A stretch of DNA of 39,589 nt from Hadesarchaea archaeon (lineage in GTDB: Archaea; Hadarchaeota; Hadarchaeia; Hadarchaeales; WYZ-LMO6): NCBI GenBank assembly GCA_029259185.1, contig JAPDJF010000054.1, positions 1 through 39,589 on the forward strand. The letters run 5' to 3'. Positions 2 to 25,149 of this stretch are shown here, one piece after another (position 1 is the stretch's first letter; every line of letters starts with the position of its first letter). The translations under genes and the position numbers were made by a program. The notes below the pieces were generated by a model. It worked only from the letters and a program-made list of their open reading frames with translations, did no database searches and was not told the origin of the DNA.

Positions 2-979
2 GGAGAGCACATAGTCTCGGACCTCGCGTTCTCCTTCAAGCACGCCCGCGTGGTGCGGATGGGAAACAAGATGTGGTACCAGCGGATGCGGGGGACCAAC
101 GAGCCCGGAGGATTCCCGGATGGGTTCATATGTGATTTCATGCAGTGTGAGCGAGACCTACCCGCTAGGAGGTTCATAGAGGTCGTGCAAGAGGATGAGG
201 ATGAGGCCCTGAAGTACTCCCATGCGATGAGTGAGGGTATCGGAGGGATAGGGGCCGTGCTGGACAATGTCATATGGCTGGGATTCTACATGAGCGGGGG
301 AATAGGGTTCTCCAACACCGTGGCCTCGGCGGCTTATTCGGAGGTGCTTAACGAGATGTCGCTTGAGTTGATTGAGCTCTCCCACCGATACATGCAAGGG
401 GTGAGGAAGGTTCCCTTGAAATGGGAAACAATAAGGACAATGGTTAACACCTTAGTGCAGTATGCGATGGAGAGTTATGAGAAGTTCCCCACCCTCTCTG
501 AGTTCCATTGGGGAGGGGCCCACAGGGTCTCCGTTATCGGGTCGATCGCAGCATCGTCGGCAGCGATGCTTACTGGAAGCTCGACGATGGGGATGATGGC
601 AGGCAACTATGCGATAGCATTCGCGATGAAAGAGGGATGGTTGAGAACGGGCTGGGCTGGGCAGGAGATCCAGGACCACATAGGTCTCCCCTACCTCTGT
701 AGCTTCAGACCCGAGGAGGGAAACCTCACCGAGCTCAGAGGTCAAAACTACCCGATGCAGTCCTTCAGCGCGGCCCACGGCAACATGCGAGCAGCAGCTG
801 TCTATTCAGCAATGATAGGCAGGGGAAGTGCGTGGTGTCTCAGTCCGATAGTCAAGGTGGCATTCGCCGATCCTCACCTCGTCTTCGACTTCAAGCGCCC
901 GAGGTTGGCGATAGCCAAAGCGGCGATCAGACAGTTCATGCCCGCCGGGGAAAGAGATCCCGTGCTTCCACCACACTGA
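2..979 (+). CDS. mcrA: Methyl/alkyl-coenzyme M reductase subunit alpha (McrA/AcrA family), 5'-truncated by window edge
   Basis: Frame open from base 2: GEHIVSDLAFSFKHARVVRMGNKMWYQRMRGTNEPGG..., WLGFYMSGGIGF, GGAHRVSV, GQEIQDHIG, LRGQNYP, VKVAFADPHLVFDFKRPR, PAGERDPVLPPH. These match the order of C-terminal McrA motifs but are strongly divergent. Confidence 0.9.
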   Translation, partial: GEHIVSDLAFSFKHARVVRMGNKMWYQRMRGTNEPGGFPDGFICDFMQCERDLPARRFIEVVQEDEDEALKYSHAMSEGIGGIGAVLDNVIWLGFYMSGGIGFSNTVASAAYSEVLNEMSLELIELSHRYMQGVRKVPLKWETIRTMVNTLVQYAMESYEKFPTLSEFHWGGAHRVSVIGSIAASSAAMLTGSSTMGMMAGNYAIAFAMKEGWLRTGWAGQEIQDHIGLPYLCSFRPEEGNLTELRGQNYPMQSFSAAHGNMRAAAVYSAMIGRGSAWCLSPIVKVAFADPHLVFDFKRPRLAIAKAAIRQFMPAGERDPVLPPH

Positions 980-987: not shown

Positions 988-1572
988 ATGAGGAAAGTTC
1001 CCTCTCTACGGGAGATGTACCCGAAGTTCGCTGAGGAATTTGAGAAAACCAAACCACCATCTGTAGTGGAGAGGGTTACCCCAGACCCGCCTCCTCCTCC
1101 CAGTATGTGCACACCACGCCCGGATGGGTGGTGGAAGCAGCCGCCTTACTCGAGTTGGGTTGGGGACAGGGGAAGAGAGCCTACAGCATATGAGCTCTTT
1201 CTGGACTTCATAATCGGGAAGTCCATAAAAAGTCCGAAGGCGATGGAGGTCGCTAGCACCCCTCCCTCTCGTCTCATAGTGTATGAGATCAGACATCCCA
1301 AGAGAGGGACGGAATTCGTAAGACTGTTTTTGAATCCAACCCAAGTGCTTGAAGGTCCTCCAGAGGAGGAACCCGATCTATGGATCAAGATGGACTATTA
1401 TGACTTCGTTCCGGTGCTAGGAGGGGAGATCAGCGTCTTCAATGCGTTATACGAGGGAAGGGCGACGTTGATAGGTAACACCACAGCGGGCTTGGATCAG
1501 TACGACATTATGGCAGCCATCCAAGGTTTCGAGATCCCGAGGCCTAGATGTTGGCCGAAGGGGCACCCCTGA
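988..1572 (+). CDS. SCP2 sterol-carrier-like protein downstream of mcrA (ORF start at 832 overlaps mcrA; ATG at 988 more likely)
   Basis: ATG at 988, 9 nt after the mcrA stop; C-terminal ...EPDLWIKMDYYDFVPVLGGEISVFNALYEGRATLIGNTTAGL resembles the SCP2 fold. Confidence 0.6.
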   Translation: MRKVPSLREMYPKFAEEFEKTKPPSVVERVTPDPPPPPSMCTPRPDGWWKQPPYSSWVGDRGREPTAYELFLDFIIGKSIKSPKAMEVASTPPSRLIVYEIRHPKRGTEFVRLFLNPTQVLEGPPEEEPDLWIKMDYYDFVPVLGGEISVFNALYEGRATLIGNTTAGLDQYDIMAAIQGFEIPRPRCWPKGHP

Positions 1573-1646
1573 CGGGGGAGAAGCGTGAGGAGGGCCCCGA
1601 TGAACTCTCGAGGAGCCCGAGCGTGATGAGTCCCAAGAAAAACGGT

Positions 1647-3110
1647 TCATTCGTTACCGTTTTTCCAGAACCCGTTGATCCTCTCCTTCAGCAACTTATA
1701 CTCAATGAGTTTTGAATAGGCTTTTCCCGCGTCCTCGGGTGAGAAGTATACCGGGATTTTGTTTCTTCGCAAGAGTTTGATCGACCTCGACTTGTCAAGG
1801 GGTTTCAGTGCTACTCCGAATACAGTTTTTCCCTTCTTACTGAATTCAATTATTTTTTTTACTAACGGTGTCTGTATCGTGTCTACGTAGTACTTCCGCA
1901 TCTCCTTGTCAAGGAATCTGACGGCATAAGCTCCTAATCCTCCAAGTATTATCACGCCTCCCACATCCCACTTTTCGAGAATACTCAAGATCTTGAACTC
2001 AATGGAGGGATCCAGTTCAGCCACCGTGTCTATAGGATTTCCCTTACTCCAGTAGGGGGGCATGAATGAGTTGAGTTCCTCCAGTATCCTAGGTGGAGGT
2101 GGAGAAATATCCACTAACCCCTCATCACAAGCATCAGTAGCTGCCACCCCCCATCCCCCACCCCGGGTCAAGATCACGAGTTTGTTGTTCTTCGGTATGG
2201 GTTGATCGAAGGCCATAGCTATTTTCAATAGGTCTTCTGTAGTTTCGGCTTCGATGATCCCGGCTTGTCTGAATGCCCCCCGATAGACTTGAATCGAGCC
2301 GGCTAGGGAGCCGGTGTGTGATCTAGCGGCCACACTTCCAGCTCTGGTTTTTCCCACCTTGAGCGCGATTATGGGTTTTTCCTTGGTGGTCTCCTTGGCT
2401 TCTCTCAAAAATTTTCTTCCATCTTTCACCCCCTCGATGTAAGTGAGGATCGTCTTGGTGGATTTCCTTCTGCGTAGGAACTCGATGAAATCCTCACATC
2501 GAAGGAAAGCTTCGTTACCACTGCTCACGAACACGTCGAATCCAAGCTGGTAGTACGTTCCCCTGTCGAGAAGTTGGGTTCCAAGGTTCCCACTTTGAGA
2601 AATGAATGACACGCTCCCTTTAAGCGGTTGAACCGAAGCCATAAGTGCCAACAAGTTTGAAGTTGCGCTGAAGACACCCATGCAGTTTGGTCCAACGAAA
2701 GGAAAGCGTCCTTCTTCAGCGATCTTTATGAGTTCGTCCTCAAGTCTTTTGCCTTCCTCCCCCGTCTCCCGAAATCCTGCCGATATGATCACACCCGCTT
2801 TTACTCCTCTCTCCACACATTCTTGAAGGATGGCCGGAACCGTGCGGGCAGGTGTGGCCACCACTGCGAGGTCCGTTTCTTCAGGGACTTTAGGGTAGAC
2901 TTTCAGTCCCATTATTTCCTTCTCCTTTGGGTTCACCGGATAAACCTCTCCCTCGAACTTTCCATCGATGATGTGTTTCAGAATTATAGTTCCCCATTTT
3001 AACGGAGAACCGGATGCCCCTATCACGGCCACAGAGTGTGGATCGAAAATGTACTTAAGACGATCAAAGACTTCTCGGGAGTTCTGTCGGTTTTCTTGCC
3101 CAGCGGTCAT
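1647..3110 (-). CDS. Acyl-CoA synthetase (NDP/ADP-forming), alpha-subunit type
   Basis: IFDPHSVAVIGASGSPLKWG CoA-binding domain; FVGPNCMG; FISQSGNLG; ARSHTGSLAGS with the conserved His. Confidence 0.92.
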   Translation of the reverse strand: MTAGQENRQNSREVFDRLKYIFDPHSVAVIGASGSPLKWGTIILKHIIDGKFEGEVYPVNPKEKEIMGLKVYPKVPEETDLAVVATPARTVPAILQECVERGVKAGVIISAGFRETGEEGKRLEDELIKIAEEGRFPFVGPNCMGVFSATSNLLALMASVQPLKGSVSFISQSGNLGTQLLDRGTYYQLGFDVFVSSGNEAFLRCEDFIEFLRRRKSTKTILTYIEGVKDGRKFLREAKETTKEKPIIALKVGKTRAGSVAARSHTGSLAGSIQVYRGAFRQAGIIEAETTEDLLKIAMAFDQPIPKNNKLVILTRGGGWGVAATDACDEGLVDISPPPPRILEELNSFMPPYWSKGNPIDTVAELDPSIEFKILSILEKWDVGGVIILGGLGAYAVRFLDKEMRKYYVDTIQTPLVKKIIEFSKKGKTVFGVALKPLDKSRSIKLLRRNKIPVYFSPEDAGKAYSKLIEYKLLKERINGFWKNGNE

Positions 3111-3344
3111 CTTTTTTGATTATTTTCAGTAGGTCGTATATAAGCTGGTGGGACGATTTTCTGAAGAGTTTTGGAGACATGGGTCCCCACGATTTCTGCA
3201 TTCATGGTTCTCCAGCTCCCACCAAAAAATGGCCACCGTTTCTTTTTCCTCACCTCTTCGCGTTTTTGTAGGAATCTCAGCTATCGAGCCAAAACGGCGA
3301 ATCCGTTAATGAAAATTTTTAAGGAATGTTTGAGTAATTAATCT

Positions 3345-3815
3345 GTGCCTCTCGTAATAACCAAAGAGTGGTTTGAAACCATAAAAGAAAAATGGAATTC
3401 AGACTCCTCGAACGTTGAAAGTTTGAAGGATTCGCACGAGACGATCCTTTGGATCGTGGAGGAGTTACCTTTATCCAAAATCTCGGGTGAACTTGAGAAG
3501 TCTATATTGGGGAGCGGGATGGTGGATCCCGCGTATTTTCAGGCGATGAAGAAGGAAAACCGGGCGGATCTCATCATCAAAATCGAGGGTGGGAAAATAA
3601 CCGAATTCAGACCGGCAAAGCAAGGGGAGGAACACACGGGAATGATCAGGGGCAAATACTCTTCATTTGAGAAGGTGGTGAAGGGTGAGGATCTCATCTG
3701 GTTGATCATGGACGGAGAAATACATTTTAGGGGAAGGTTGCCAGAATTTGCGAAGAGACTTGACGGCTACACGAGACTCACAATCACCTTTGTATCCAAT
3801 ACCGAACTTCCGTGA
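3345..3815 (+). CDS. SCP2-like sterol carrier domain protein
   Basis: GTG start; ADLIIKIEGGKITEFRPAKQGEEHTGMIRGKYSSFEKVVKGE..IHFRGRLPEFAKRLDGYTRL. Confidence 0.5.
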   Translation: MPLVITKEWFETIKEKWNSDSSNVESLKDSHETILWIVEELPLSKISGELEKSILGSGMVDPAYFQAMKKENRADLIIKIEGGKITEFRPAKQGEEHTGMIRGKYSSFEKVVKGEDLIWLIMDGEIHFRGRLPEFAKRLDGYTRLTITFVSNTELP

Positions 3816-3824
3816 GGTGGGAAT

Positions 3825-5300
3825 ATGGCGGAGATGATGGAGGAGAGAAGTCAACAGCTGAAGGCTGAGTGGGAAGAGTGGTTTAGGGGAATGGGGTTCG
3901 ATAAGGTATGGAAACGGTTAGACGTGATCAATCCTTTCCCGGGTAGCATCCCAACTAACGCGGAAATATTCATGGTAATGCCCGTGTGGCGACACGTCTT
4001 CAGGGAACTCCACATGGATCCAGAAGTGTGGCGAAGGTTGAAATACGAGAATTTTGTTGAATGGTCTTACAGAGTGGATCAAGCAGTCGAGACCACGAAC
4101 CGTGTGGCTAAAAATCCCCCTTCTCCCGATGAGATGTATTGTATTGAGAACCTGTGTTATTTGAGCCATCCCCCTGCATATCTTTGTAAGCCGGATGTGG
4201 GAAAGAGCACATGTCAAATGCTTTACGGGAAATATGCGACCGTTGAGTACGTGCACGTGGATGATTTCTCCAGAGAGGTTTACTGGATAAATGGGTATCA
4301 TAACGAGGATGGATTCCCCGTGCACAGATGGACCGTAGGGGTTGCGAGTGATATCTCCCAATATTTCGATGAAGAAGACGAGAGAGCATTTCTCACAAGT
4401 ACTGAAAGCTGGACGGGAGCCTCAAACAGAGAGGAGCTAGACGATCGTTTAAACCGGAGACACCTCAGAACTGGAGTGAAGATAAGGGATGTGCCGAAGG
4501 TGTACTGGGATCCATATGACTGGGGGATGGGGGTTAGAGATGTAGTGAACGATATGCGGACAGAAGTTTTTTCTAAATGGCTCCACGCCACGTTGTACAT
4601 GTCATGTGTCTCAGCATACATCAGCACGATCGCGCAGAATGCCCTAATGAGCAGTGAGTTTTTCCTTTACGTGTACTACGGATTGAATACGAGCGCATTA
4701 GGTGTGAAGTATAATTTGTTCTCTTATGTACCGATTCCTCCGATCCTGAGAACTCTGCTCAACCTGCCTCAAGAGACTTTCGTTAAGCGGATGAGTGAGC
4801 TTTTCTTAGGTGGATACAACGCAATTCATAAGTATGCTTGTAATGAGAAGAAGGTTCCTCATCTCTTCAAGATCAGGAAATTCATCTTCGATCACGGTCA
4901 GTTCTATCCGCACGTCAAGGGAATAGTCCCACCTATGGCAATGGCGAGAGCTATCCCTCCCTCGATGGAGGTGATAAACCTGGACAGGTATTTGGAGACT
5001 CCTCCCAGCAAGGAGTTCTTGGAATTGTTAGAGGCCGATGGGGGTCTGAATCCCGAGACGGGCGAACTCCCACCCGTAGACGAAGTCGGACGATTCAGTT
5101 TTCTCATAGATCCATCTATCGAACCGATCAGGCCAAGCGACTTTCCACCATTAGACTGTAACCAGGGACAGATCTGGCCATTCGACATAACAAGAGAAAA
5201 AGTGGAGATAATGGTGGAAGAGGGTTATGACGGCTCTGGGAAAAACGTGGAACACTACAGCAAACTAGCGGATAAGAAGATGGGTAAGAAAGTGGATTGA
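3825..5300 (+). CDS. Uncharacterised 491-aa protein in the mcr/SCP2/AOR locus
   Basis: Long ORF, SD-like gaggtggg upstream, 9 nt after the SCP2-like ORF; no family recognised by eye; rich in Trp/Tyr/His. Confidence 0.85.
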   Translation: MAEMMEERSQQLKAEWEEWFRGMGFDKVWKRLDVINPFPGSIPTNAEIFMVMPVWRHVFRELHMDPEVWRRLKYENFVEWSYRVDQAVETTNRVAKNPPSPDEMYCIENLCYLSHPPAYLCKPDVGKSTCQMLYGKYATVEYVHVDDFSREVYWINGYHNEDGFPVHRWTVGVASDISQYFDEEDERAFLTSTESWTGASNREELDDRLNRRHLRTGVKIRDVPKVYWDPYDWGMGVRDVVNDMRTEVFSKWLHATLYMSCVSAYISTIAQNALMSSEFFLYVYYGLNTSALGVKYNLFSYVPIPPILRTLLNLPQETFVKRMSELFLGGYNAIHKYACNEKKVPHLFKIRKFIFDHGQFYPHVKGIVPPMAMARAIPPSMEVINLDRYLETPPSKEFLELLEADGGLNPETGELPPVDEVGRFSFLIDPSIEPIRPSDFPPLDCNQGQIWPFDITREKVEIMVEEGYDGSGKNVEHYSKLADKKMGKKVD

Positions 5301-5302
5301 AT

Positions 5303-5878
5303 TTATTTCCCCTGCTTAAACAGCTCTGCTACTTCCATCATCGCGGATGAAACTTTCATCCCAAGGGGAATACTTCCCCCTTCCATCTTTATAACCTGTT
5401 TGAAAAAAGCTTCAGTAGGATCTATTTCCCCGACTAGCACACCTATCAAGGATTTGGTGTATCCTTTGATGGTCATATCCGCATTCGCAAGTGGATATCC
5501 CCCCCCAGATAATTTTCCTTCAGATATCTTCAAGTGACCTTTCATGGGACTGTCTATTGCTTCGAAATTTACTGACACTTCTCCAGCTTTTTTTAGCGCT
5601 TCCTTGATATCAGGATTCTTCTCGACCATGACACTTATCCCCTCCCACAATAAATCCATGAACTTAGCAGAAGCTTCAGGGGCCTCTTTCACGAACTTGA
5701 TCACGTCCACATTTTTTAGCTTGTTGATGAGCTTTGGAACAAGATCGGGGACGAGTTCTATCAGCTGTGCTACACCGAATTCTTTTATGCCATTCAAAAG
5801 GGGAATCAGGTTTTCCTTCAGTTGATCCACAGGTAACTCTAGGGCTTCCTCAACAGCTTTCTTGAGATCTTCTCCCAC
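5303..5878 (-). CDS. SCP2 sterol-binding domain protein
   Basis: GHLKISEGKLSGGGYPLANADMTIKGYTKSLIGVLVGEIDPTEAFFKQVIKMEGGSIPLGMKVSSAMMEVA. Confidence 0.75.
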   Translation of the reverse strand: MGEDLKKAVEEALELPVDQLKENLIPLLNGIKEFGVAQLIELVPDLVPKLINKLKNVDVIKFVKEAPEASAKFMDLLWEGISVMVEKNPDIKEALKKAGEVSVNFEAIDSPMKGHLKISEGKLSGGGYPLANADMTIKGYTKSLIGVLVGEIDPTEAFFKQVIKMEGGSIPLGMKVSSAMMEVAELFKQGK

Positions 5879-6203
5879 GGCCTAATAAGAGGCGGGAATC
5901 TTTTAAAACTTTTGGGAACCGGTTCTTCGCGCAATCGGTCTTCGTTTTAGTCGGCATCCACACCCTATACTGAGGGGTGATGTTGGCTTTCGTAACCCTA
6001 GACGTTATGATGATCAATGCGCCGGCAGTTGTGGGATCGAGGGGAGGGACCGCATAGCTTGGGTGAACATTGCCGAACCCGAAGATGAAGGGTGAGGTTC
6101 GGCCGGGTGTGGGAAATGATTGCGAACCCATCAGTTGCGTACTCCAGATTGCGTGACAGAACCTGGGACCCAAACCTTTTAGCAGTCCATTCTGAAATAG
6201 GGT

Positions 6204-8174
6204 GTGGACTATTTCGGATATTCGGGGCTCGTGCTCAAGGTTGATTTGGATAGAGGAAAAGTGGAAAGTGAAACACTCTCCAAGGAGCTGATCGAGAAAT
6301 TCATCGGGGGATGGGGAATCAACTTAAAACTTTTCAGAGATTGGAGCAAGCCGCTCGTGGATCCTCTCTCTCCAGAAAATCCCCTGATCCTGGGGGCAGG
6401 TCCACTGGTCGGAACGGCAGTCCCAGGAGCGGTCAAGCTTGTGGCTACAACGAAGTCACCAATAGCGGACAGGGCGGGGAAGCATTTCATCGACTGTGCG
6501 GTTGCGGGTGGAAAATTTGGCCCAATGCTAAAGAAAGCGGGCTACGATCATGTGATAATAACCGGCAGAGCGAGTGAACCCGTCTACCTGAGTATAGAAA
6601 ACAAAGGAGCTGAGATACTCGATGCTTCGGATCTATGGGGAAAAATGGATACGTACGAAACCACCGATTGGCTCCTCCGCAGACACCCGAATGCAGCCGT
6701 GATTTCAATAGGCAAAGCTGGGGAAAAGTTGGTGAGATACGGGATGGCCATCGTCGATCGCTTTGCCACGTTGGGGAGATTCGGGGTGGGGGCGGTGATG
6801 GGATCGAAAAATCTCAAGGCCATAGCCGTCAGGGGAGATGGAGGGGTTCGGATAGCAGAACCGGACGAATTCCTGCGGTGGGTTAGAGAGTGGAGAAAAG
6901 ACATAGAGAAAAATCCGATCCTCTCTGAATGGCGCGTTCTCGGTATAACGGCAGGGTGGGCGGTTCACTCTCCCCTAGTTCGGGAGGGGGTTTGGGAGTA
7001 TTCCAGATGGGCGGAACTCTACGGGCCGGAACGTTGGGTCGAGTTCAAGTGTAAAAAGAGAAATTCAGCTTGCTATGGGTGTCCTATGAGTTGTAGGGTG
7101 GATTTCTGCATAAAGGATGGGAAATACAGGGGTCTTGCTTCCTTCACCGGCTCGTACATGCTTCCAGCTAGGGTTGGACAAAGACTAGAACTCGAAGATC
7201 CGCGAGAAGCCGTCAAGTTGCTTGATATCTGCAACAGGGCCGGGATGTGTTACTTCACCACAAGCCAGCTCGTGAACTGGGTCACGAGATTGTATGGGAG
7301 GGGCAAAATTTCGAAGAAGACAACAGGTGGGGAGGTTCTGGAGAGAAAATTCGATGTCTACCTGAGACTCTTCGAACAAGTAGCATCAAGAAGTGGATTC
7401 GGGAAAATCCTAGCGGATGGGTGGTATCCATTGGCCAGACGGATAGGTGCCGATCCAGATGAATTCGAAGAGGGGACAGGAGTCTTCAGGGGTTGTGATG
7501 TCATTCAAGATGCGAGATTCACCAGACTTCATCCCCAAGCGTTTTCTCATTTCACGAGCCCGAGACCTCATCACGGGGGAACCCAATCGGTTTACACTAT
7601 CCCGAACTTGCCACTCGAGGTTCTCAGGGAGGTGGACGCGAAGGACATGGGCTTATCGGAAGAGGAGCTTCACCGGATATTCGGCGATCACAGGTTCGGA
7701 AGGTTTAACGTGGGGAGGTACGCCAGACATGCTGAGGATCGGATGGCGGTTTACAACAGTTTGGGGGTGTGTATTGTCCATGCGCTTTGGGGTTTCTTGG
7801 GAATAAAATACCTGAACCTGAGGTGGATAGCGAAAATTTATTCATCAGCTACCGGGATTCAAACGAGTGTAGACAAACTCAAGAAGGGTGGAGAGAGAGC
7901 ATTCACTTTTTGGAAGCTTTTGAACGCCGAGGAAGGATTCTCCAAAGAAGACTACAGATGTTCGGAGGTTTGGCTTAATCCGAGGAAAACTCCGGAAGGT
8001 GAATGTGGGCTGATGGATTACTATGGTGAGATACGCATCTCAAGAGCGGAGGTGGAGAAATTGTTGGAAGAATACTATGAGGAAAGGGGATGGGATAAGA
8101 AGACAGGGCTCCCCACTCTTGAGAAACTCAAGGAGCTCGGGTTGGAGGAGAATTTCAGGGTTCGATCAACTTAA
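6204..8174 (+). CDS. aor: Aldehyde ferredoxin oxidoreductase family (tungsten-pterin) protein
   Basis: GYSGLVLKVDLDRGKVESETL; FIGGWGIN; ENPLILGAGPLVGT; RFGVGAVMGSKNLKAIAVRG; ACYGCPMSC 4Fe-4S ligands. GTG start. Confidence 0.95.
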   Translation: MDYFGYSGLVLKVDLDRGKVESETLSKELIEKFIGGWGINLKLFRDWSKPLVDPLSPENPLILGAGPLVGTAVPGAVKLVATTKSPIADRAGKHFIDCAVAGGKFGPMLKKAGYDHVIITGRASEPVYLSIENKGAEILDASDLWGKMDTYETTDWLLRRHPNAAVISIGKAGEKLVRYGMAIVDRFATLGRFGVGAVMGSKNLKAIAVRGDGGVRIAEPDEFLRWVREWRKDIEKNPILSEWRVLGITAGWAVHSPLVREGVWEYSRWAELYGPERWVEFKCKKRNSACYGCPMSCRVDFCIKDGKYRGLASFTGSYMLPARVGQRLELEDPREAVKLLDICNRAGMCYFTTSQLVNWVTRLYGRGKISKKTTGGEVLERKFDVYLRLFEQVASRSGFGKILADGWYPLARRIGADPDEFEEGTGVFRGCDVIQDARFTRLHPQAFSHFTSPRPHHGGTQSVYTIPNLPLEVLREVDAKDMGLSEEELHRIFGDHRFGRFNVGRYARHAEDRMAVYNSLGVCIVHALWGFLGIKYLNLRWIAKIYSSATGIQTSVDKLKKGGERAFTFWKLLNAEEGFSKEDYRCSEVWLNPRKTPEGECGLMDYYGEIRISRAEVEKLLEEYYEERGWDKKTGLPTLEKLKELGLEENFRVRST

Positions 8175-8601
8175 ACACGCTATCTGGGACTGTTGAGTTA
8201 CTCATTCCCCCTGCTATCAACGATATGAGTTCGAAGTCCAGTTTATCAACACCTTTGGTGATTTTCAGCTTTTCTTCCGCTAGAGCGTTAGAGAGTTCTT
8301 CTCGTCCAGAGAGAATATCCTTCCACGTGGACCACTCTCCTTCTAACACAACATCCGCTTCGAAAGGGCTTGTACTCACTTCGGATTCCACGCGTTGATC
8401 CACCAAACGGATGTGCATGTAAACATCGCTCATACCTTTTTCCTTAAATGGATCGGGAACCCTTATCACGGGGGAAAGGGAGAAATCTTTTCCCTTCGTT
8501 TTTTCTTTGAAATCCGGCTGGGCTTCGATGTTGCTCATCAAGACGTTTAGAAAACTCCTTATACCGGCGATGAACAATTCTGATTCGATACTTCCGGTCA
8601 T
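8155..8601 (-). CDS. SCP2-like protein
   Basis: ADVVLEGEWSTWKDILSGREELSNALAEEKLKITKGVDKLDFELISLIAGGMS. Confidence 0.55.
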   Translation of the reverse strand: MTGSIESELFIAGIRSFLNVLMSNIEAQPDFKEKTKGKDFSLSPVIRVPDPFKEKGMSDVYMHIRLVDQRVESEVSTSPFEADVVLEGEWSTWKDILSGREELSNALAEEKLKITKGVDKLDFELISLIAGGMSNSTVPDSVFKLIEP

Positions 8602-8625
8602 CTTCTAACAGAGGAAAAAATGTAT

Positions 8626-9255
8626 TTAACTCCTTCGCCGAGAAGTTTTTGTCTCTTCCCCGAGGATTTTTGCGGCTGCGGTCTTAGCAGCCTCAAGGAG
8701 TGGTTGACTACAGAGCAACACGGGACAAGCGGATATCGGCACCTTCACGATCTTCTCAAGAGTAGTGCTTACAATGGGTGCGCACACAATAGCTTTGGCT
8801 CCCTCTTGTTCAGCGTTGAGGGCAGCAATGATCACGTCCTCAATGGTTGTTGCTCCGTATTCCTTTATTTTGATCTTCTGCCCGTGCACACTTATGTACT
8901 GGGTTTGTATCGAGTCGAGCGTTGGTCTTGCTGCGATTATAGCGATAAAAGGTTCCCGACCCCCTTCCACGTTTTCAAGTTTTCTTATGGCCTTCACTAT
9001 CTCTCGAAACGTTGAGAGACGGGGGTTGGGTCTGTCTCCCGAGATAATCTTGTAGAGGGAACTTTCAGATATGCCCGAGATCCTGCTGAATTCTTTTATA
9101 TCCAAGCGCAGCTCCCTCAGGACTTTTTTCAGAGTCTCCCTGAAGCTTTCATCCGATTCTAAACTCGACTTGAATACTTCCTCCCACTTCAAGAAGCCGG
9201 CCATTTTCTTCCTATTATATGATTTACCCAATTTGGGAATAAATACTTTCATCAA
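8626..9255 (-). CDS. XRE-type HTH transcriptional regulator with C-terminal ligand-binding-like domain
   Basis: LDIKEFSRISGISESSLYKIISGDRPNPRLSTFREIVKAIRKLE HTH; C-terminal AARPTLDSIQ...GATTIEDVIIAALNAEQEGAKAIVCAPIVS. Confidence 0.8.
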   Translation of the reverse strand: MMKVFIPKLGKSYNRKKMAGFLKWEEVFKSSLESDESFRETLKKVLRELRLDIKEFSRISGISESSLYKIISGDRPNPRLSTFREIVKAIRKLENVEGGREPFIAIIAARPTLDSIQTQYISVHGQKIKIKEYGATTIEDVIIAALNAEQEGAKAIVCAPIVSTTLEKIVKVPISACPVLLCSQPLLEAAKTAAAKILGEETKTSRRRS

Positions 9256-9369: not shown

Positions 9370-10713
9370 ATGGGAATAGGATGGTCGTACGTGCTAGATT
9401 TCGTATTCCTCAGCGCGCTCCTTCTCTTCTCAACTCTCCTGCGTGCAAAGATCAAAATCTTTCAAAGAGTTCTAATGCCGAATGCACTGGTAGCGGGGAT
9501 CTTCGGACTTTTGTTGAGCCACCAAGTTCTCGGTTTGGTTCCATTTTATCACCTGAAGGATATGGTATATCATTTGTTGAATCTAACGTTTGCTTTTCTA
9601 GTTCTAGGTATTCCTATGGGAAAGGGGACTTATGGTCAAGCCGCTAGTACGGGTATTCTAATGAGTTTTGTTTTTGCCCTGCAACTTTTAGTGGGGCTGT
9701 CTTTAACCTTCGTTCTTTTATACACGTTCATGCCCACTCTCTTCCCAGCCTTCGGCGCGCTTATGGGGATAGGTTATGCTTCCGGTCCAGGACAAGCGTT
9801 CGCGATAGGTTCGAGCTGGGAGTCCGCTGGGTTCCCGCATGGTGGGGACGTGGGATTGATTTTCGGAGTGATAGGTTTTTTCTGGGCTTATGGTGTCGGG
9901 GTGATGTTGTTGAATCGCGGAATAGGGAAAGGTTTGAGCACCAAGATCAAGGACATGAAGAGTGTTCCGAAAGAGGTTTGGAGCGGGATACTACCCGAGA
10001 GGAAACAGAGACCGGTTGGAAAACTCACAACCTCTTCAGAGGTGGTGGACACGTTTACGGTTCAGATAGCCCTGGGCGGATTGGTCTATATGTTGGCATA
10101 CATGGTGGCGAAGGGTGTGGATGAACTGATTTCGGTCAATGCTGTCTGGGGGGTACTTTTCATACTCACGGTGATCACGGGTTTTGTGGTTAGGATGATT
10201 ATCGAAAGAACTGGTGGGGATAAGTTGTTGTCTCCCGGGGTCCAGAGACACATGGCTGGAGCATGCGTTGATTACACAGTAGCTGCGTCGGTGGCGGCCA
10301 TTTCCATACCGGTGGTGAGCGAGTATGCAGTACCCTTGGTCCTCATAGCTCTCATGGGCGGGCTCGCAACACTTCTGGTGTTCTTTTGGTTGCCGAGGAA
10401 AATCTGGCGGAATTATCGGTTCGAGAGAACGCTCGTATGTTACGGAACCCTTACGGGAACGATGGATTCAGGTATTGCCCTTTGTAGGGTAGTGGATCCC
10501 GAACTCAGCACTCCAGCGGTGACCGATTACGTGCGTGGAATGCCTTTGATGTTCGTTTTAGTTATGCCTCTCTTCGCCATAGCTTCCATACCCGTACTCG
10601 GTTACGGTCTTCCAGATTCCTCTCTCTATTGTATCTCCGCGATCCTCCTTCTCTTAGTTTGTATGGGGGTCCTAGTTGGGTTATGGAAAAAAATAGGGTA
10701 CTGGGGGGACTGA
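9370..10713 (+). CDS. Sodium/glutamate symporter (GltS)-like transporter
   Basis: Multi-TM; GYASGPGQAFAIGSSWESAGFPHGGDVGLIFGVIGFFWAYGVG motif. Confidence 0.8.
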   Translation: MGIGWSYVLDFVFLSALLLFSTLLRAKIKIFQRVLMPNALVAGIFGLLLSHQVLGLVPFYHLKDMVYHLLNLTFAFLVLGIPMGKGTYGQAASTGILMSFVFALQLLVGLSLTFVLLYTFMPTLFPAFGALMGIGYASGPGQAFAIGSSWESAGFPHGGDVGLIFGVIGFFWAYGVGVMLLNRGIGKGLSTKIKDMKSVPKEVWSGILPERKQRPVGKLTTSSEVVDTFTVQIALGGLVYMLAYMVAKGVDELISVNAVWGVLFILTVITGFVVRMIIERTGGDKLLSPGVQRHMAGACVDYTVAASVAAISIPVVSEYAVPLVLIALMGGLATLLVFFWLPRKIWRNYRFERTLVCYGTLTGTMDSGIALCRVVDPELSTPAVTDYVRGMPLMFVLVMPLFAIASIPVLGYGLPDSSLYCISAILLLLVCMGVLVGLWKKIGYWGD

Positions 10714-14859: not shown

Positions 14860-14960
14860 CCTGGCGGTCGAACAGACAGGTGTGGAGGATAGATTTCGGT
14901 CGCGGAGTGTCACTTTTAAAACTCAAATTTTTAGCCAACGATGGCAAAAATTAAGCTGGT

Positions 14961-15077
14961 AGCCCCGTGGGGTAGGCCGCTTTAGGTTAGCGGGCCCAAT
15001 GGTCAGGCTTAAGCCCCATAAAAGCCTACGGGCCTTTGGAGCCCGTGACACCGGTTCGAATCCGGTCGGGGCTACCA
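14961..15077 (+). tRNA. tRNA-Gln(TTG) with two putative introns (14976-14999 and 15005-15021), CCA encoded
   Basis: AGCCCCG/CGGGGCT acceptor; ACCGG-TTCGAAT-CCGGT T-arm; anticodon loop CTTTGGA. Mature form after excision AGCCCCGTGGGGTAGTGGTCAAGCCTACGGGCCTTTGGAGCCCGTGACACCGGTTCGAATCCGGTCGGGGCTACCA. Confidence 0.88.
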
Positions 15078-15204
15078 CTCTGTGCCGTTAACTCGTTCTG
15101 CAGTCTTTTATAGGAGGTAAGCTAGAGCAAGGAGTTTGGTTCAGTTACCTCTACGGGGTTTTTGGAGAAAGTTTTTGAGAGTCCAGAGGCTTATCTAATT
15201 TAGT

Positions 15205-15306
15205 AGCCCCGTGGGGTAGGCCGCTTTACGGTTAGGCGGGCCCAATGGTCAATCCTGCGAGGCTCTGGACCTCGCGACTCCGGTTCGAATCCGGACGGGG
15301 CTACCA
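15205..15306 (+). tRNA. tRNA-Gln(CTG) with one putative D-loop intron (15220-15245), CCA encoded
   Basis: Same acceptor stem; anticodon loop CTCTGGA; intron GCCGCTTTACGGTTAGGCGGGCCCAA at the same GGGTAG^TGGTC position as in the TTG gene. Confidence 0.9.
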
Positions 15307-15401
15307 CTTGGGATAGTTTCGGTGGATGAATAGTTCCCCCTAGCCGAAGATCATTCCTACTTCCACTTTCAGGTGCAGGAAATCTGAATCGGTCGCCGAG
15401 T

Positions 15402-17954: not shown

Positions 17955-17969
17955 AGTTAAGGTTTATAT
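17955..17969. repeat. Left target-site duplication of the casposon (AGTTAAGGTTTATAT)
   Basis: Identical 15-mer at 27526-27540, immediately outside both TIRs. Confidence 0.93.
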
Positions 17970-18173
17970 TTTTTACATTATTTGCATTTTCGACCCCAAC
18001 TTTATGCCATCTGAAGGTAGATAACATACGTTTTAGCCAATCAGAGCACTTATTGAGCGGCGAACAACGAAATACGGATTAAACAGTCCTTTTTCAATTT
18101 TTACGTTACCTATTCTTCCTCCTTTCGGCTTCGACCAAAACCCCGAAAATCGAATTAGGGTCAGGATTTGGGT
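17970..18173 (+). repeat. Left terminal inverted repeat, 204 bp
   Basis: TTTTTACATTATTTGCATTTTCGACCCC...GGTCAGGATTTGGGT; reverse complement found at 27322-27525 with no mismatch seen by eye. Confidence 0.97.
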
Positions 18174-18202
18174 TCAGAGTAGCTTATTGGGGTTATGAAG
18201 TT

Positions 18203-18553
18203 ATGAAGCAACATTTATTAAAGTCAAAAATCACATGCAATGGGGTGTCAGGAATTCAAGTCCCAATCCCTCCCGAATACGCCTGGTTGATTCCAATCGT
18301 CGTGCCTTTTATAATCGGTCTGCTCGTGGGGACAATAATCAAAAAAGTCATAAAGTTGGCTTTGGCTGTAGTAGCTTTAATAATCGTTTTAGTCGCCACC
18401 GGATCCATGACCATGACTTTTGAAGACCTGTGGGGTAAAGCGATGGAATTCCTGCCTAAGTTGTACGAATCGGGTGAGGGATACTTAGACGTTTTGCCGT
18501 ACACATCCGCAACGTTTTTGATCGGCCTTGCGCTGGCGCTTTGGAAAGCTTAA
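18203..18553 (+). CDS. Small membrane protein of casposon
   Basis: Two or three hydrophobic segments (WLIPIVVPFIIGLLVGTII, KLALAVVALIIVLVATG). Confidence 0.6.
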   Translation: MKQHLLKSKITCNGVSGIQVPIPPEYAWLIPIVVPFIIGLLVGTIIKKVIKLALAVVALIIVLVATGSMTMTFEDLWGKAMEFLPKLYESGEGYLDVLPYTSATFLIGLALALWKA

Positions 18554-18577
18554 AAATAAGAAATGTGAGGAATAAAT

Positions 18578-18838
18578 TTGCCTATTGATATGAAAGATGT
18601 TGAAAAAACTGTGATGAGTTGGATAAGATCTAGGTATAAAAATGTTAGAGCTATACGGATTACCAAGATATGGAGAGAGCAGGACTTTTGGAGCGTCGAT
18701 GTAGAATTCGAGATTCCGACCGAAACCACATTTGGCTTTGACCCGCTTTTGCCTGCAAGTCTCAGGTCGCGGGGGATAAAACGTATGCGTAGGTTTCAAG
18801 TGGATAGATCAAGCGGGGAGGTTATAGGGGTTAAATAG
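18578..18838 (+). CDS. Hypothetical 86-aa protein of casposon
   Basis: ORF in + strand cluster; no family recognised. Confidence 0.5.
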   Translation: MPIDMKDVEKTVMSWIRSRYKNVRAIRITKIWREQDFWSVDVEFEIPTETTFGFDPLLPASLRSRGIKRMRRFQVDRSSGEVIGVK

Positions 18839-18922
18839 AAATTGTCGGAAATTCAGATTCAATCCTCTCGAAACTATTGCCATAAAAATAATAAGGTTAA
18901 GATTAACATAAATGGTGATTTC

Positions 18923-19516
18923 ATGAAAATAATCGGAGTTTTTAAAGAATTGGATGAAAATGAAAAATTAATTTTCGAAAGTAAAGTAGTAACTCCAACG
19001 ATCTTCGTCAAGGAAGCCGAAGTTAAAAAATTAATCGGAAGAGAAAGACGGGAAATCCCTATTTCTTTCTCTGCTACCAATCTTTACTTAACAAACAAAC
19101 GGCTTTCTTTTCTTATTTTGTACCAGCTTGAAGCGAGGACAATTTCAGAGAGTGGGGCTCCAAAATTAAGTGGAGTTGCTGGCACATGGTTTGAAATTCC
19201 AGTAAGCGCAATATCTTCAGCTGACATAAGACCCGTATTTCTAAAATCATTTGAAAAAGAAGTTGACATGAAAAGGCTTGTCGAGTGGGGGGTAATAAAA
19301 AAAGAAATGGCGGAGAGAGCATCAGCCGTCGAACTGATTTATAGCGAAGAGGATGCTGTTGGTAGAATTAAAGATTATATGCAATCTTTGTTAAAAATGG
19401 GTTTCTGGGGTAAAATTTTTAAAAAAATTGAAAGAGTATCAGATAAATTAATGATAGTAGGCGAAGAAGCAACAACAATAGTTCCCTCAATAAAAGGCTT
19501 GATAAAGAAACAGTAA
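18923..19516 (+). CDS. Hypothetical protein, possibly PH/GRAM-like
   Basis: Likely ATG 18923 (MKIIGVFKELDENEKLIFESK...ATNLYLTNKRLSFLILY). Confidence 0.5.
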   Translation: MKIIGVFKELDENEKLIFESKVVTPTIFVKEAEVKKLIGRERREIPISFSATNLYLTNKRLSFLILYQLEARTISESGAPKLSGVAGTWFEIPVSAISSADIRPVFLKSFEKEVDMKRLVEWGVIKKEMAERASAVELIYSEEDAVGRIKDYMQSLLKMGFWGKIFKKIERVSDKLMIVGEEATTIVPSIKGLIKKQ

Positions 19517-19656
19517 TCTCTAAAAAATCTTAATGAGCTTTTGTTCCCAAGCACTTAAAAACGGTTCGAAATATGTTGAGGTGGTAGTTTTTCTGGCAAT
19601 TTTAATCTAGAGATTTGCTGGCCTATATCAGTAGGGGGGCGTTGGAGAAGTTAGAT

Positions 19657-20079
19657 TCATAGAACTTCATCTTCAAAAGGAATCCCAAACTCTTGTTTTA
19701 GGAAATTCTTCAGATAATATTTCAGACCTCCATCCTTTTTCAGCAGTTCAATAAGCTTGTCTTCCTCCTCGTGTTTTGAGGTCTCAACCTTCTGCTTCTC
19801 CAACTCCTCTTGTAGGATCTTTCGAATGAGGGGTTCGATGTCTGACCTCGCTTTATCCCTTGGTCGGGCTTTGTATCTCCCTTCGTCATGATCGCTTATC
19901 CGATGCTTTTCGACTTCCCACGCTGCTTGACAACACCTAAAGTAATGTTTTCCCCTCGTTTGGTGCAATTTGCCACATAAGGGACACTTAACTATCTTTT
20001 TCATGTCTTTTTCACCATTTTTGGCACGGATAAACTGGTCTTTTCCATACCCTTTGGGTAAAAAATACCTCTTTTTCAT
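19657..20079 (-). CDS. Small zinc-finger protein of casposon
   Basis: KCPLCGKLHQTRGKHYFRCC. Confidence 0.6.
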   Translation of the reverse strand: MKKRYFLPKGYGKDQFIRAKNGEKDMKKIVKCPLCGKLHQTRGKHYFRCCQAAWEVEKHRISDHDEGRYKARPRDKARSDIEPLIRKILQEELEKQKVETSKHEEEDKLIELLKKDGGLKYYLKNFLKQEFGIPFEDEVL

Positions 20080-20195
20080 GTCTTTTTGATGGTTTTTGCA
20101 GCGATATGCCTACATTATCCTCAATATGTCGTGATTTTCTTACATTTGACGCAATTTTCCGAGATTTGACAAGATTTGATGTCATTAGTACACCT

Positions 20196-22157
20196 CTAAA
20201 ATTCTGTGGCATAAGCGCATTCATGGCACTCCGGAGCAACGCAAAGCTCCTTCCGCTTCAAAGCTTCGCTTGCTGTCAAACCGCAAGGCTTGATCTCATT
20301 TTCCCAGTTTATCCAAAGCCTTCTCGGCCTGGTCTCCATAACTCTGGCCCTTTTCTTTTGCCTGATCGCTTCTCTGACTTTGGTCATGTGCTTAGCTATG
20401 TATTCGTTTGACTTGTCCCTGTAAAGCCTGAGCAGTTCTATGACGTTTCCCCAGAAACCGTGCAAGGCGTATTTCGGGAAGAACTTCCACGTGTCTTTGG
20501 GATGAGTCTTCAAATGCTCTTCAATTCGGTCAAGATTTTTTCTTGACCACGCCCTTAGATCCCCTCCAAATTCTCCCATCACTTCCTTTTGAATCTCCTC
20601 CGAAAACATGACGTAGAGCTTGGGTCTAATCAAGAGGAGCAAGCCACGATGCTCGCGCTTCAGTTCGCCAAGACCCGAACCAGTCGGTATGTCGTTTCTC
20701 CTCGTCTTGAACGAATCTGTAGCACAGTCTACCGCTTCGTATCGGTGCAAATCTTCATGAAGCTTGGCCCTGCACATCGAGGTTATCCAAGATCCAACAT
20801 GGGGGAGGTAGATGCCACCGGCGCGGTAAAGGATCCTGTTTCTAACACACCGCTTTAGTCTCTCATCCCAGATAAGCTCAGGCTCCTCTTCGTAATCCGT
20901 TTGCCTGATCGCTTGGTATGTTTTGCCGTAGAGGGAGTTCAACAAGAGTTTATACATTTGATAGCGTGGATCATCTTCAGGTGTTTCTTGCTTTAGACGG
21001 TAAAATTCTTCCACGTAGTCTTTGAACGGATTTTCTGCACGGTTGGAAGGAACCCAGACATACCCTTTGACCTTTGCTAAGTCTATTTCGTCATGCTTCA
21101 GGGCTTCCCTTAGTTCATAAGAGACAACTGGCGCACGCCTTACGTGTTCATCGTTGGCAAACTCGAAGTTATTGGCGTTCTTCAGGATTATCGGATACTT
21201 GCACTTATTCACATAACCATCAACCAAATAGAACCCTTCAAACTCATCAACGAAATCATTAACCTTCAGCCATTTGCCCTCGGTCAAAGGTGGCAAATTC
21301 GCCATTGCCCAAGGGTAAAAGGAGTTATAATCGTAATAGTTCACGTCTGGGATTACCGCTATTCCATCAACAAAGGTGCTCGCCCTCCCGCCATGTATCG
21401 ATTGTTCGGCAAGCCGCCTAACCCAAGAGGGAACTTGCGGGATCTTGGTTTTTAGAAAGTGCTTCTTGAAAACTTTGGAAGCGAACTGAGAAGCCGAGAC
21501 CGATATTGCTGTATCATAACGCTTGTGCATGTCCAAGATGTATTGGGCTAAATCATATGTGGCTAAAATTTCGACTCTGCAATAACGGTAGAGGTCTTGC
21601 CATTCACTTCGTGTTTTAGGTTTCTTACCTTCTCTGACGAATTCGGGCCTTATCCCCTTTTGATGATTCAGGTTTAACTTTCTGGATATTTCGTAAAGTG
21701 AACCTCGAACAAAAGAGCCCGTATCGATAACTTTGATGTAAGCTCCATTTCTCAATCCTATTCTAGCGAACCAGACCTTTTGAGAATAGATTTTTTCAAA
21801 CGTGCCAAGTGGGTGTTCAAGTTTTGGTGGGTTCAAATATCGAAATAATTCATCTTCCTTTTCGCACAGAACAGCCGTTAGGTCAAACTGCAGGTTGTGG
21901 GCAAATAATAAATTTGTTCGGTGGTTGGCGCATCTCTGGCTCAGATATCTCATGAATTCGTCTAAAACAGTTCTTTGAGTTACCCTGATGTAAGCCGGTC
22001 TGATCCCATCGTGAAACGTTAAGAGATAAGGAATGCCGTCCTCAGTTTCCGTGTCAAATACCATGAGGTTGACGTTTCTCGGAAAAGAATTTCTTAGCGG
22101 TTTTACTCCACCAGCAAGATACCTGGGCAATTCAACCGATTTATCCATGTCTACCAC
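20196..22157 (-). CDS. polB: Family B DNA polymerase, probably protein-primed (casposon PolB)
   Basis: Exo I FDTETEDG, Exo II AHNLQFDL, motif A YYDYNSFYPWAM, motif B KLLLNSLYGKTYQ, motif C CATDSF. Confidence 0.93.
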   Translation of the reverse strand: MVDMDKSVELPRYLAGGVKPLRNSFPRNVNLMVFDTETEDGIPYLLTFHDGIRPAYIRVTQRTVLDEFMRYLSQRCANHRTNLLFAHNLQFDLTAVLCEKEDELFRYLNPPKLEHPLGTFEKIYSQKVWFARIGLRNGAYIKVIDTGSFVRGSLYEISRKLNLNHQKGIRPEFVREGKKPKTRSEWQDLYRYCRVEILATYDLAQYILDMHKRYDTAISVSASQFASKVFKKHFLKTKIPQVPSWVRRLAEQSIHGGRASTFVDGIAVIPDVNYYDYNSFYPWAMANLPPLTEGKWLKVNDFVDEFEGFYLVDGYVNKCKYPIILKNANNFEFANDEHVRRAPVVSYELREALKHDEIDLAKVKGYVWVPSNRAENPFKDYVEEFYRLKQETPEDDPRYQMYKLLLNSLYGKTYQAIRQTDYEEEPELIWDERLKRCVRNRILYRAGGIYLPHVGSWITSMCRAKLHEDLHRYEAVDCATDSFKTRRNDIPTGSGLGELKREHRGLLLLIRPKLYVMFSEEIQKEVMGEFGGDLRAWSRKNLDRIEEHLKTHPKDTWKFFPKYALHGFWGNVIELLRLYRDKSNEYIAKHMTKVREAIRQKKRARVMETRPRRLWINWENEIKPCGLTASEALKRKELCVAPECHECAYATEF

Positions 22158-22929
22158 CTTTCGCCTTGATGACCTTTGGCTTGCGTTCAGGCGAGAGGAA
22201 AGTCAGGGCGATTATCCGCTCGATTACGAAAGGTGCTCTCCGGTATTGCTCAGCCAAAATATCGGGCATGTTCTCCTTCGCCCAAGCGTAGATCTCATCG
22301 AAGTCAACGGGCTTGTCTGAATACCTGATTTGAGTTGTGTTGATGAAATAGACATCCGATTGTTCAACGATGAAGTAAGCTCCAACGGTTGTGAACTTTC
22401 CTCTCGGGTTTCTCTTTCTATCGGAACAAACAAGTGTTCTGGGATTGATGAACTTAAAACGTGGATATGCGATGTTTCCGAAGCGATAGATTCTGTTAAG
22501 CTTATCGATGTATTTTTGTGTTGGAATCCATTCTCTTTCCGGCTTTGGGAATCTCGGCCTCTCAACAGACGGCTTCCTCCCTCTCTTCCTCAGCCCCTTC
22601 AAGCCGTACTCCCTGATTTTCCGCTTGATGGTGGACTCAGAAACTCGGTAATAGCGGGCTATGGCTTCGGTCTTTTTGTCCTGCTTAAGAAATCGCTTAA
22701 GTTCCTGTTTCGTGATCCGCTTCGGCTTTCTGACCCTGATTTTCGGCTTGGGTTTCCCCCTGAGTTTAGCTTTGAGCCTCCGAACCTCTGATTTAAGTGT
22801 CCGAATCTCGGCCTCAAGCTCGGCAACGCTTTTATGCTTTACTCGCAATTTTTTCTTATGGGGATTGCCGACTAGGGAAGGTTGTCTTCGCTTCCTAGCC
22901 ATTGGGGGAGATGGGATGGCTTTCTTCAT
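22141..22929 (-). CDS. HTH-containing protein of casposon
   Basis: KQELKRFLKQDKKTEAIARYYRVSESTIKRKIREYGLKGLRKRGRKP HTH after a basic coiled N-terminus. Confidence 0.7.
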   Translation of the reverse strand: MKKAIPSPPMARKRRQPSLVGNPHKKKLRVKHKSVAELEAEIRTLKSEVRRLKAKLRGKPKPKIRVRKPKRITKQELKRFLKQDKKTEAIARYYRVSESTIKRKIREYGLKGLRKRGRKPSVERPRFPKPEREWIPTQKYIDKLNRIYRFGNIAYPRFKFINPRTLVCSDRKRNPRGKFTTVGAYFIVEQSDVYFINTTQIRYSDKPVDFDEIYAWAKENMPDILAEQYRRAPFVIERIIALTFLSPERKPKVIKAKGGRHG

Positions 22930-23210
22930 CGGATATCCCCTTTTTTGACTTGTTCTCTGATCAAGGAGAGATCCGAGAGAAATGCATACAGCGCAGTTCT
23001 GACTACTTCAGCCTGAGAACATTGCAATCTTTGAGACGCTTCTTCTACTGCACGTTTTAATCCACTTGGAACTACTAGGTCAAGCACAGGTTTTGGAGAC
23101 TTCCACGATTTTTTTGTATTCATGATCATCAAAAACAAGTTCACGTAAGTCTTATATAGACCTTTAAGGTAATTACTCGATGGGTATGATATATACCCGA
23201 CGCAAAACAT
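22926..23210 (-). CDS. Ribbon-helix-helix-like regulator
   Basis: VLDLVVPSGLKRAVEEASQRLQCSQAEVVRTALYAFLSDL. Confidence 0.65.
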   Translation of the reverse strand: MFCVGYISYPSSNYLKGLYKTYVNLFLMIMNTKKSWKSPKPVLDLVVPSGLKRAVEEASQRLQCSQAEVVRTALYAFLSDLSLIREQVKKGDIR

Positions 23211-23220
23211 TGGTGATATA

Positions 23221-24138
23221 GTGCCTAAGAAAATCGAGAACCCACTGCGGGAAGGCCTGCCCTCTAAGATTTATTTGTTATCCTACTGTGAACCTCTTAC
23301 CGCCTATGAGATAGCTAAAAGAATTTATGGAGTAAAGCCCCCCCATATTCCGCCTACTTCTAAAGTTTCGACTTGGGTAAAGAAAATGAAGGAAAATGGG
23401 ACCCTTTCCGAGAATGAGGAAAAGAAAACTTATGCCCGAGTTGACCCTCTAATAGTTGAAATTGAAAGCACCCTGAAAGAACACGATGTTGAGCTATCCG
23501 ATTTTGAAAAACATATGATCTCTCGTCTCTTGGATTCCCAAGAATTCAGATGGCTTGTTAAGAAATTGATGCCCCCAATGAGTTATGATATCGACTCGGC
23601 TTGGATTATCATGAACCATCTTGCACTTGTGGCTTCTGTGCGGGTTCTTAGAGAAAAGATGCCAGAAGTTCCACAGCTGGAAACACCAAGGGGCTTTATC
23701 CAAAAACATGCAGGAAAATTAGAGGAAACCAGAGAATTTAGGAGTCTGGAAAAGATTGGGCGCTTTCCATCAAAAGAGTCAGAGTTTGATGAAAGACTGA
23801 AAATTCTCAGAAGGTTTTGGGAAACGAAGGAATTCAGGGAACTTACATCTGAAATAACCGAATTGCTTAAAGAAGCGGAAGTTTTTGGGGATCTCTCGGA
23901 CGAAGAAGTTTTAGAATTTTTCAAACTTGACCTGTTGCTAAGATCGATTCCAATTTCAACTTTGGAGAAACTCACCAATTTGGGTTTTTTAAACAGATTG
24001 ATATCAATACCCGCGCTAGCAGGGTTTGACTTCTTCCCCTTTCATCGGTTGGAGAGAGTATTAGAAAGAGAAGTAAATCGAATGAAGACACGTGAAAGGA
24101 AGAAGCTTTTGAAAAATTCCGGAGTGGAAAAAATCTAG
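23221..24138 (+). CDS. Winged-HTH-like protein upstream of casposase
   Basis: N-terminal LLSYCEPLTAYEIAKRIYGVKP..PPTSKVSTWVKKMKENGTLSE; GTG start. Confidence 0.65.
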   Translation: MPKKIENPLREGLPSKIYLLSYCEPLTAYEIAKRIYGVKPPHIPPTSKVSTWVKKMKENGTLSENEEKKTYARVDPLIVEIESTLKEHDVELSDFEKHMISRLLDSQEFRWLVKKLMPPMSYDIDSAWIIMNHLALVASVRVLREKMPEVPQLETPRGFIQKHAGKLEETREFRSLEKIGRFPSKESEFDERLKILRRFWETKEFRELTSEITELLKEAEVFGDLSDEEVLEFFKLDLLLRSIPISTLEKLTNLGFLNRLISIPALAGFDFFPFHRLERVLEREVNRMKTRERKKLLKNSGVEKI

Positions 24139-24144
24139 AACGAG

Positions 24145-25139: not shown

Positions 25140-25149
25140 TGGTGAAGCC

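Follow-up and report, generated by a model that had tools for sequence, protein, structure and literature searches.

The window, by which we mean the whole 39,589-nucleotide stretch of DNA analyzed here, comes from a Hadesarchaea archaeon (assembly GCA_029259185.1, contig JAPDJF010000054.1) and is contig C13 of a 54-contig, 1.27 Mb genome. Of the three other members of its family, G003 shares an identical contig with Hadesarchaea WYZ-LMO6, which identifies the family as GTDB WYZ-LMO6, the one for which Benito Merino et al. introduced the name Ca. Cerberiarchaeaceae (PMC10811742). At the left edge of the window lies the end of a gene for the alpha subunit of an alkyl-coenzyme M (CoM) reductase (Acr), and this is followed by a block with the order acrA2-SCPa(+)-ACDalpha(-)-SCPb(+)-U491(+)-SCPc(-)-AOR(+)-SCPd(-)-HTH(-)-transporter(+) (Table 1). 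Here, the SCPs resemble sterol carrier protein 2 (SCP2), ACDalpha is the alpha subunit of an ADP-forming acyl-CoA synthetase (ACD), AOR is an aldehyde:ferredoxin oxidoreductase-like protein, and HTH is a helix-turn-helix regulator. The key gene is U491, which encodes a member of an uncharacterized family (U) that is restricted to one clade of AcrA in distantly related archaea.

The block is tightly packed, with intergenic gaps of -20 to 325 bp. In G001, from a second genus of the family, the whole block is present gene for gene and on the same relative strands at 58-89% identity (acrA 89%, SCPa 82%, U491 79%, ACDalpha 73%, AOR 68%, and SCPs 59-67%), and the start of the block is also found in G002 and G003 (=WYZ-LMO6). 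Window genes to the right of the block have no counterpart in the same order in G001. As the order is the same in two genera and synteny is broken beyond the block, this is not a neighborhood brought together by chance. One could still argue for an ordinary fatty-acid or aldehyde gene cluster that adjoins acr by accident, as the ACD, AOR, and SCP2 families are common elsewhere and AOR is present in many genomes of our AOR comparison. However, the block has been kept in two genera while synteny around it was lost, and U and SCPa stand beside acr across distant lineages, making an accidental association very improbable. The original prediction, which saw a cluster for converting alkyl-CoM to acyl-CoA here, named an mcrA-like gene, an acyl-CoA synthetase, an AOR, SCP2-like proteins, and a regulator; all are present, with their order conserved in G001, but U491 was omitted from the list.

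Table 1. Genes of the acr-linked block in the window
Feature	Positions	Strand	Evidence and remarks
acrA2, C-terminal part, alkyl-CoM reductase alpha	2..979	+	Gene cut by contig start; PF02249 81 bits
SCPa, predicted SCP2 fold	988..1572	+	8 bp behind acrA
ACDalpha, ADP-forming acyl-CoA synthetase alpha subunit	1647..3110	-	CoA_binding_2, Succ_CoA_lig
SCPb, weakly SCP2-like	3345..3815	+	9 bp before U491; adjacent to U in Hadarchaeota and BA2
U491, uncharacterized Acr-linked family	3825..5300	+	491 aa; no family match
SCPc, SCP-2 sterol transfer family	5303..5878	-	PF02036 31.1 bits, cut-off 21.3
AOR family, tungsten aldehyde:ferredoxin oxidoreductase-like	6204..8174	+	PF02730 225 bits, PF01314 192 bits
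SCPd, weakly SCP2-like	8155..8601	-	PF02036 18.5 bits, under the cut-off of 21.3; position shared with G001 and G003
HTH (XRE-type) regulator	8626..9255	-	PF01381 26.4 bits, cut-off 23; same place in G001
Membrane protein, probable transporter, conserved block end	9370..10713	+	Hydrophobic on inspection of the sequence; no Pfam hit reaching its cut-off; position shared with G001 and G003

The acrA2 fragment (325 aa) scores 224 bits against TIGR03256 over model positions 242-547, and its nearest PDB chains are alpha subunits of methyl-CoM reductase (Mcr). Full-length acrA orthologues reach 489-519 bits and so remain below the Mcr equivalog cut-off of 767.75, and in a tree the orthologue falls within a 25-row Acr branch apart from Mcr (support 100/100). 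Contigs C38 and C10 both terminate in acrA N-termini; C38 reads acrA1-SCPa1-acrB-acrG-U525-acrA2 N-terminus, and a single WYZ-LMO6 contig carries acrA1(part)-SCPa1-acrB-acrG-U525-acrA2-SCPa2-ACDalpha consecutively. From these ends and the WYZ-LMO6 order we infer a contig order of C10-C38-C13, which would put C38 directly before the window. The block forms the 3' portion of an Acr locus in a Hadarchaeon that probably oxidizes long-chain alkanes. In a Hadarchaeon of the same family, hexadecyl-CoM has been detected and its further conversion was termed unknown (PMC10811742); by analogy to that culture, activation of alkanes to alkyl-CoM is a candidate activity of the window Acr. There are two acrA copies here, one on each side of a single acrB and acrG (L017, L021, L020), with about 80-84% identity over the part they share, whereas one complete Acr operon is described for Ca. 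Cerberiarchaeum oleivorans (PMC10811742). A mixed alpha/alpha' Acr made from both copies is conceivable. The assemblies of three genomes break or fuse within acrA, probably at near-identical stretches, and contig C1 of G001 seems to join an acrA1 N-terminus to an acrA2 C-terminus.

The U491 protein has no match in Pfam (up to E 10) or NCBIfam and no PDB relative, and no usable remote relative of the family emerged from these databases, PHROGs, or three PDB profile searches. Its paralogue U525, with 44% identity, lies between acrG and acrA2. The AlphaFold2 (AF2) model of U491, made from 8 sequences, has a predicted local distance difference test score (pLDDT) of 45, and for this reason no fold comparison was made. 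In addition to this long form there is a short form, seen as whole genes of about 370-440 aa in the families we label f146, f154, f158, f161, and f164, and the two forms are linked by profile comparison (prob 99.7, E 5e-26). Four residues, H159, E161, H213, and E247 (U491 numbering), are conserved in the acr-linked copies. They would suit a metal site, and reading them as a 2-His-1-carboxylate arrangement is a guess. A second, divergent paralogue without the conserved His, p2 (L165-L170), has ACDalpha close by in f154 and, in G843, a second acr operon. Beside U in f146, f154, f161, and f164 there is also a small protein of about 105-180 aa (L107, L108, L111, L112, L113, L117) with conserved Cys and a CExGH-like motif; the copies compared with Pfam and NCBIfam gave no match.

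The distribution of U is narrow. An exact-peptide scan of about 85,000 prokaryote species, which detects close relatives only and perhaps excluded the window's own genome, found U relatives only in two Hadarchaeal genomes and in Bathyarchaeon BA2. Among 394 genomes around the window, the U family profile matched the 4 family members only. An McrA-type gene is present in 73 of these 394 genomes; four have Acr and are the four U carriers, and none of the 69 others, with canonical Mcr, has U. The second sample came from the phylum to which G257 belongs (taken as Halobacteriota); of its 394 genomes, those with sub-cut-off McrA scores were selected. Here the long-form profile gave clear U matches in four Methanoliparia-type genomes, with E between 5e-86 and 5e-28, and weak matches in f146, f154, f158, f161, and f164 (E 1e-11 to 5e-5), while the short-form profile, run on 325 genomes of this phylum, matched nine, all in the same families. 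Searches of ANME-1 found U in none of five genomes with profile A1 and in none of five others with profile A3. Neither the long-form profile nor A3 found it in G1011, which is regarded as an ethane oxidizer because its AcrA matches ethyl-CoM reductase 7b1s with 1363 bits over the full length. G662, the sister of G707, has neither U nor an AcrA of the U-linked clade described below. Taxon names for the f-numbers follow from acr content: f138, with canonical Mcr and a divergent Acr, would be Methanoliparia, f146, with four acrA, would be Syntrophoarchaeum, f154, with three acrA of which one is apart from acrBG, would be Alkanophaga, and f161, with two, would be Polytropus-like. The metagenome-assembled bins are incomplete, and Helarchaeales and Bathyarchaeon BA1 lie outside the genomes covered.

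What U follows is evident from a McrA/AcrA tree of 33 sequences, in which AcrA was scored as U-linked when U was no more than 10 kb away (16 kb in G648). The 12 sequences scored in this way all fall into a single branch supported at 100/100, joined by one unlabeled G678 sequence, and the full-length orthologue of acrA2 in G003 lies inside this clade. The 14 AcrA/McrA without U fall outside the branch, including other Acr of the same genomes; G843 C26 was scored as without U although a divergent p2 paralogue lies about 5 kb away. The idea that U tracks all Acr was dropped, as the tree shows it following one AcrA clade. The family is present in every examined lineage with this clade (Hadarchaeota, BA2, and the putative Methanoliparia and Alkanophaga-, Syntrophoarchaeum-, and Polytropus-like genomes) and, apart from the divergent p2 paralogues, absent with methanogen Mcr, ANME-1 Mcr, ethyl-CoM reductase, and other Acr clades.

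Gene neighborhoods agree with the tree. In eight lineages (Hadarchaeota, BA2, G648, f146, f154, f158, f161, and f164) U is next to or near acr, mostly within 10 kb of acrA. BA2 has SCPb-U-SCPa-acrA together, f146 has U-small-acrA-SCPa, f154 has small-U-YcaO-acrA, f158 has U-acrA, f164 has acrB-acrG-U-small-acrA-SCPa, and in f161 U is divergent from acrB-acrG-acrA-SCPa. The arrangement in G648 is SCP-U-AOR, with U 0.3 kb from the AOR orthologue; the contig also carries acrBGA, at a distance of about 16 kb and with FadD in between. Further U copies follow FadD or lie close to genes for acyl-CoA dehydrogenase and Etf. In BA2, a FAD-linked oxidase and a CCG/Fe-S protein directly precede SCPb-U-acrA (L027, 6780-9433), and a similar-looking pair is found about 8 kb upstream (L172, 15924-18553).

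The location of U inside acr operons makes an accessory role the main rival, and a serious one, to an enzymatic role. U could help to assemble Acr, load its F430, modify it after translation, or bring long alkanes to it, as a helper like McrC or McrD for Mcr, and SCPa could do likewise. Such a role fits the U copies placed between acrG and acrA (Hadarchaeota and f164), SCPa behind acrA, the YcaO gene between U and acrA in f154, and the fidelity of U to one AcrA clade. However, there are several U copies per genome, some of them beside FadD, Etf, or acyl-CoA dehydrogenase and not acr, and other Acr clades manage without U. We consider the accessory role possible but on the unlikely side.

The SCP2-like proteins are candidates for handling the hydrophobic alkyl intermediates. 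SCPa has no Pfam match, but its AF2 model (pLDDT 74) has sterol carrier protein 2 as its best Foldseek hit (E 9e-7, prob 1.00), so an SCP2 fold is predicted. The modeled fold matches both SCP2 and part of alkylsulfatases such as SdsA1, and SCPa differs from the SCP2 family in its N-terminal extension, the lack of a Pfam match, and its location beside acrA. It adjoins acrA in Hadarchaeota, BA2, G678, f146, f161, and f164. SCPc belongs to the family by Pfam, and its relatives lie near acrA or U in BA2, G648, G672, G678, and G664. SCPb has no Pfam match and aligns weakly to SCPc (hhalign prob 57%); by eye and alignment, the protein encoded before U in G648 has a stretch homologous to SCPb. The count of four SCP2-like proteins made at first is firm for SCPc, rests on a predicted fold for SCPa, and is weaker for SCPd, which is below the cut-off, and for SCPb.

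The window AOR shares both AFOR domains (AFOR_N and AFOR_C) and the 4Fe-4S motif CxxCxxxC with Pyrococcus furiosus AOR (1aor); the motif lies at residues 290-297, and NSLGVC is also present. Use of tungsten and activity on aldehydes are predicted by family. The protein reaches no NCBIfam equivalog cut-off. An orthologue group with 51-70% pairwise identity is found in the four Hadarchaeota (G000-G003), BA2 (on the acrA contig, about 20 kb from acrA), G648, G678, and G780, only in genomes with the U-linked AcrA clade, and the other AORs compared over their length share about 40% or less with the window protein. Involvement of AOR has been proposed in print (PMC7175092 and PMC10811742), and it is possible that this orthologue oxidizes alkyl-CoM directly, with U secondary. 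This would fit the restriction of the orthologues to genomes with this Acr, their position next to U in Hadarchaeota and G648 and on the acrA contig in BA2, and the role suggested for AOR in Ethanoperedens (PMC7175092). However, most Syntrophoarchaeia-type genomes carrying both U and an AcrA of this clade yielded no such orthologue, and we regard direct oxidation by AOR as unlikely. AOR as the sole explanation of the cluster was dropped, as the orthologue is patchy; in f154 genome G771, a different AOR lies beside U.

ACDalpha belongs to the PDB 2csu/4xyl family, carries the phospho-His motif SHTGSLAG, and keeps its place in G001, G002, and G003. Its TIGR02717 score of 438.6 bits is under the cut-off of 567, and it was therefore not filed as acetate-specific. 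The ADP-forming synthetase that had been called is thus represented by its alpha subunit, below the TIGR02717 cut-off; no beta (ATP-grasp) subunit lies beside it or was identified in the window, and a genome-wide search was not made.

Taken together, these genes could form a route from alkane to acyl-CoA. Acr would form alkyl-CoM, and the SCP2-fold proteins would hold or pass on the hydrophobic alkyl intermediates. U-family enzymes would act on alkyl-CoM, either by releasing the chain from CoM or by rearranging subterminal isomers, with the conserved His-x-Glu plus His as candidate active site. The product, an intermediate at the aldehyde level, would be oxidized to the acid by the clade-specific AOR with ferredoxin, and ACD, or FadD beside other U copies, would make acyl-CoA for beta-oxidation. 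The processing module would consist of SCPb-U491-AOR, with ACDalpha, SCPc, SCPd, and the regulator on the opposite strand. Papers on these archaea, including PMC10811742, describe this conversion as unexplained, and earlier candidates, AOR and methyltransferases, have been doubted on grounds of expression or substrate size.

A role for the block in converting alkyl-CoM to acyl-CoA is plausible, and an Acr locus joined to a U/SCP2/AOR/ACD module for this purpose is the best explanation, at roughly even chances of being right. Several points weigh against it. Because U has neither a fold (AF2 pLDDT 45) nor a remote match, its identity as an enzyme is unproven. The His/Glu set is incomplete in some paralogues: p2 copies are without H159, FadD-linked copies carry Asp at H213, and copies linked to acyl-CoA dehydrogenase are without E247. 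No AOR orthologue turned up in f146, f154, f161, or f164; expression of Aor in Alkanophaga is only moderate (PMC10322722); and a fixed place for ACDalpha at this location is seen in Hadarchaeota only. The idea of an alkyl-CoM to acyl-CoA cluster has thus been borne out in part. It survived the condition set for its refutation, a lack of co-occurrence with mcr/acr in related genomes. The cluster does stand beside acr across the family, and SCPa beside acrA in most lineages with the U-linked clade; the AOR orthologues keep to this clade but are missing from several lineages that have it, and it is the U491 family, not AOR or ACDalpha, that tracks the Acr clade. U is for this Acr clade a better common denominator than AOR.

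A more specific version has U as a mutase or isomerase that moves a subterminal CoM to carbon 1, an extra step for mid- and long-chain alkanes. In Alkanophaga, activation of long alkanes takes place mostly at inner carbons, and a subsequent rearrangement has been postulated (PMC10322722); U also tracks an AcrA clade with kinship to long-chain Acr, and the ethane oxidizer has no U. However, no B12 or radical-SAM family was recognized in U, which is without a structure, and the mutase seems improbable to us.

Comparison with known relatives places the proposed module in context. The accessible text on Ca. Cerberiarchaeum oleivorans (PMC10811742), from the same family, likewise reports Acr, several Aor, acyl-CoA synthetases, and beta-oxidation; it names the Aor and synthetases without a gene neighborhood, SCP2 proteins, or the U family. 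Ca. Alkanophaga and Ca. Syntrophoarchaeum (PMC10322722) resemble the window in that one of their Acr belongs to this clade and has U as a neighbor, and a further likeness is a strongly expressed acrA apart from acrBG. In Alkanophaga this acrA is related to long-chain acrA and ranks among the top 4-19 expressed genes (PMC10322722), a description that fits the U-linked acrA of f154. Unlike the window, both have the short form of U, of about 380 aa, paired with a small protein that contains Cys/His, and neither yielded the AOR orthologue. No description of U or of SCP2 proteins with Acr was found in the literature searched, which mostly excluded subscription journals and supplements.

Farther along the window, a casposon-like element at 17964-27531 is bounded by 210-nt terminal inverted repeats (17964-18173 / 27322-27531, 99% complementarity) and carries a type B DNA polymerase (20196-22157(-)) and Cas1 (24258-25139(+)). 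Two near-copies of a tRNA-like sequence at 14952-15308 are perhaps tandem intron-containing tRNA genes; Rfam scores 15012-15074 as tRNA, and ARAGORN reports none.

We tentatively propose, at somewhat less than even chances, that U491 is the first member of a new family of enzymes, specific to one Acr clade, that converts alkyl-CoM toward acyl-CoA in archaea using mid- and long-chain alkanes. As a family that occurs with one Acr clade in distant lineages, beside acr, and does not accompany Mcr or ethyl-CoM reductase, U is a concrete target for assays and for re-reading existing transcriptomes, and its presence in a genome could mark archaeal alkane oxidizers of this class.

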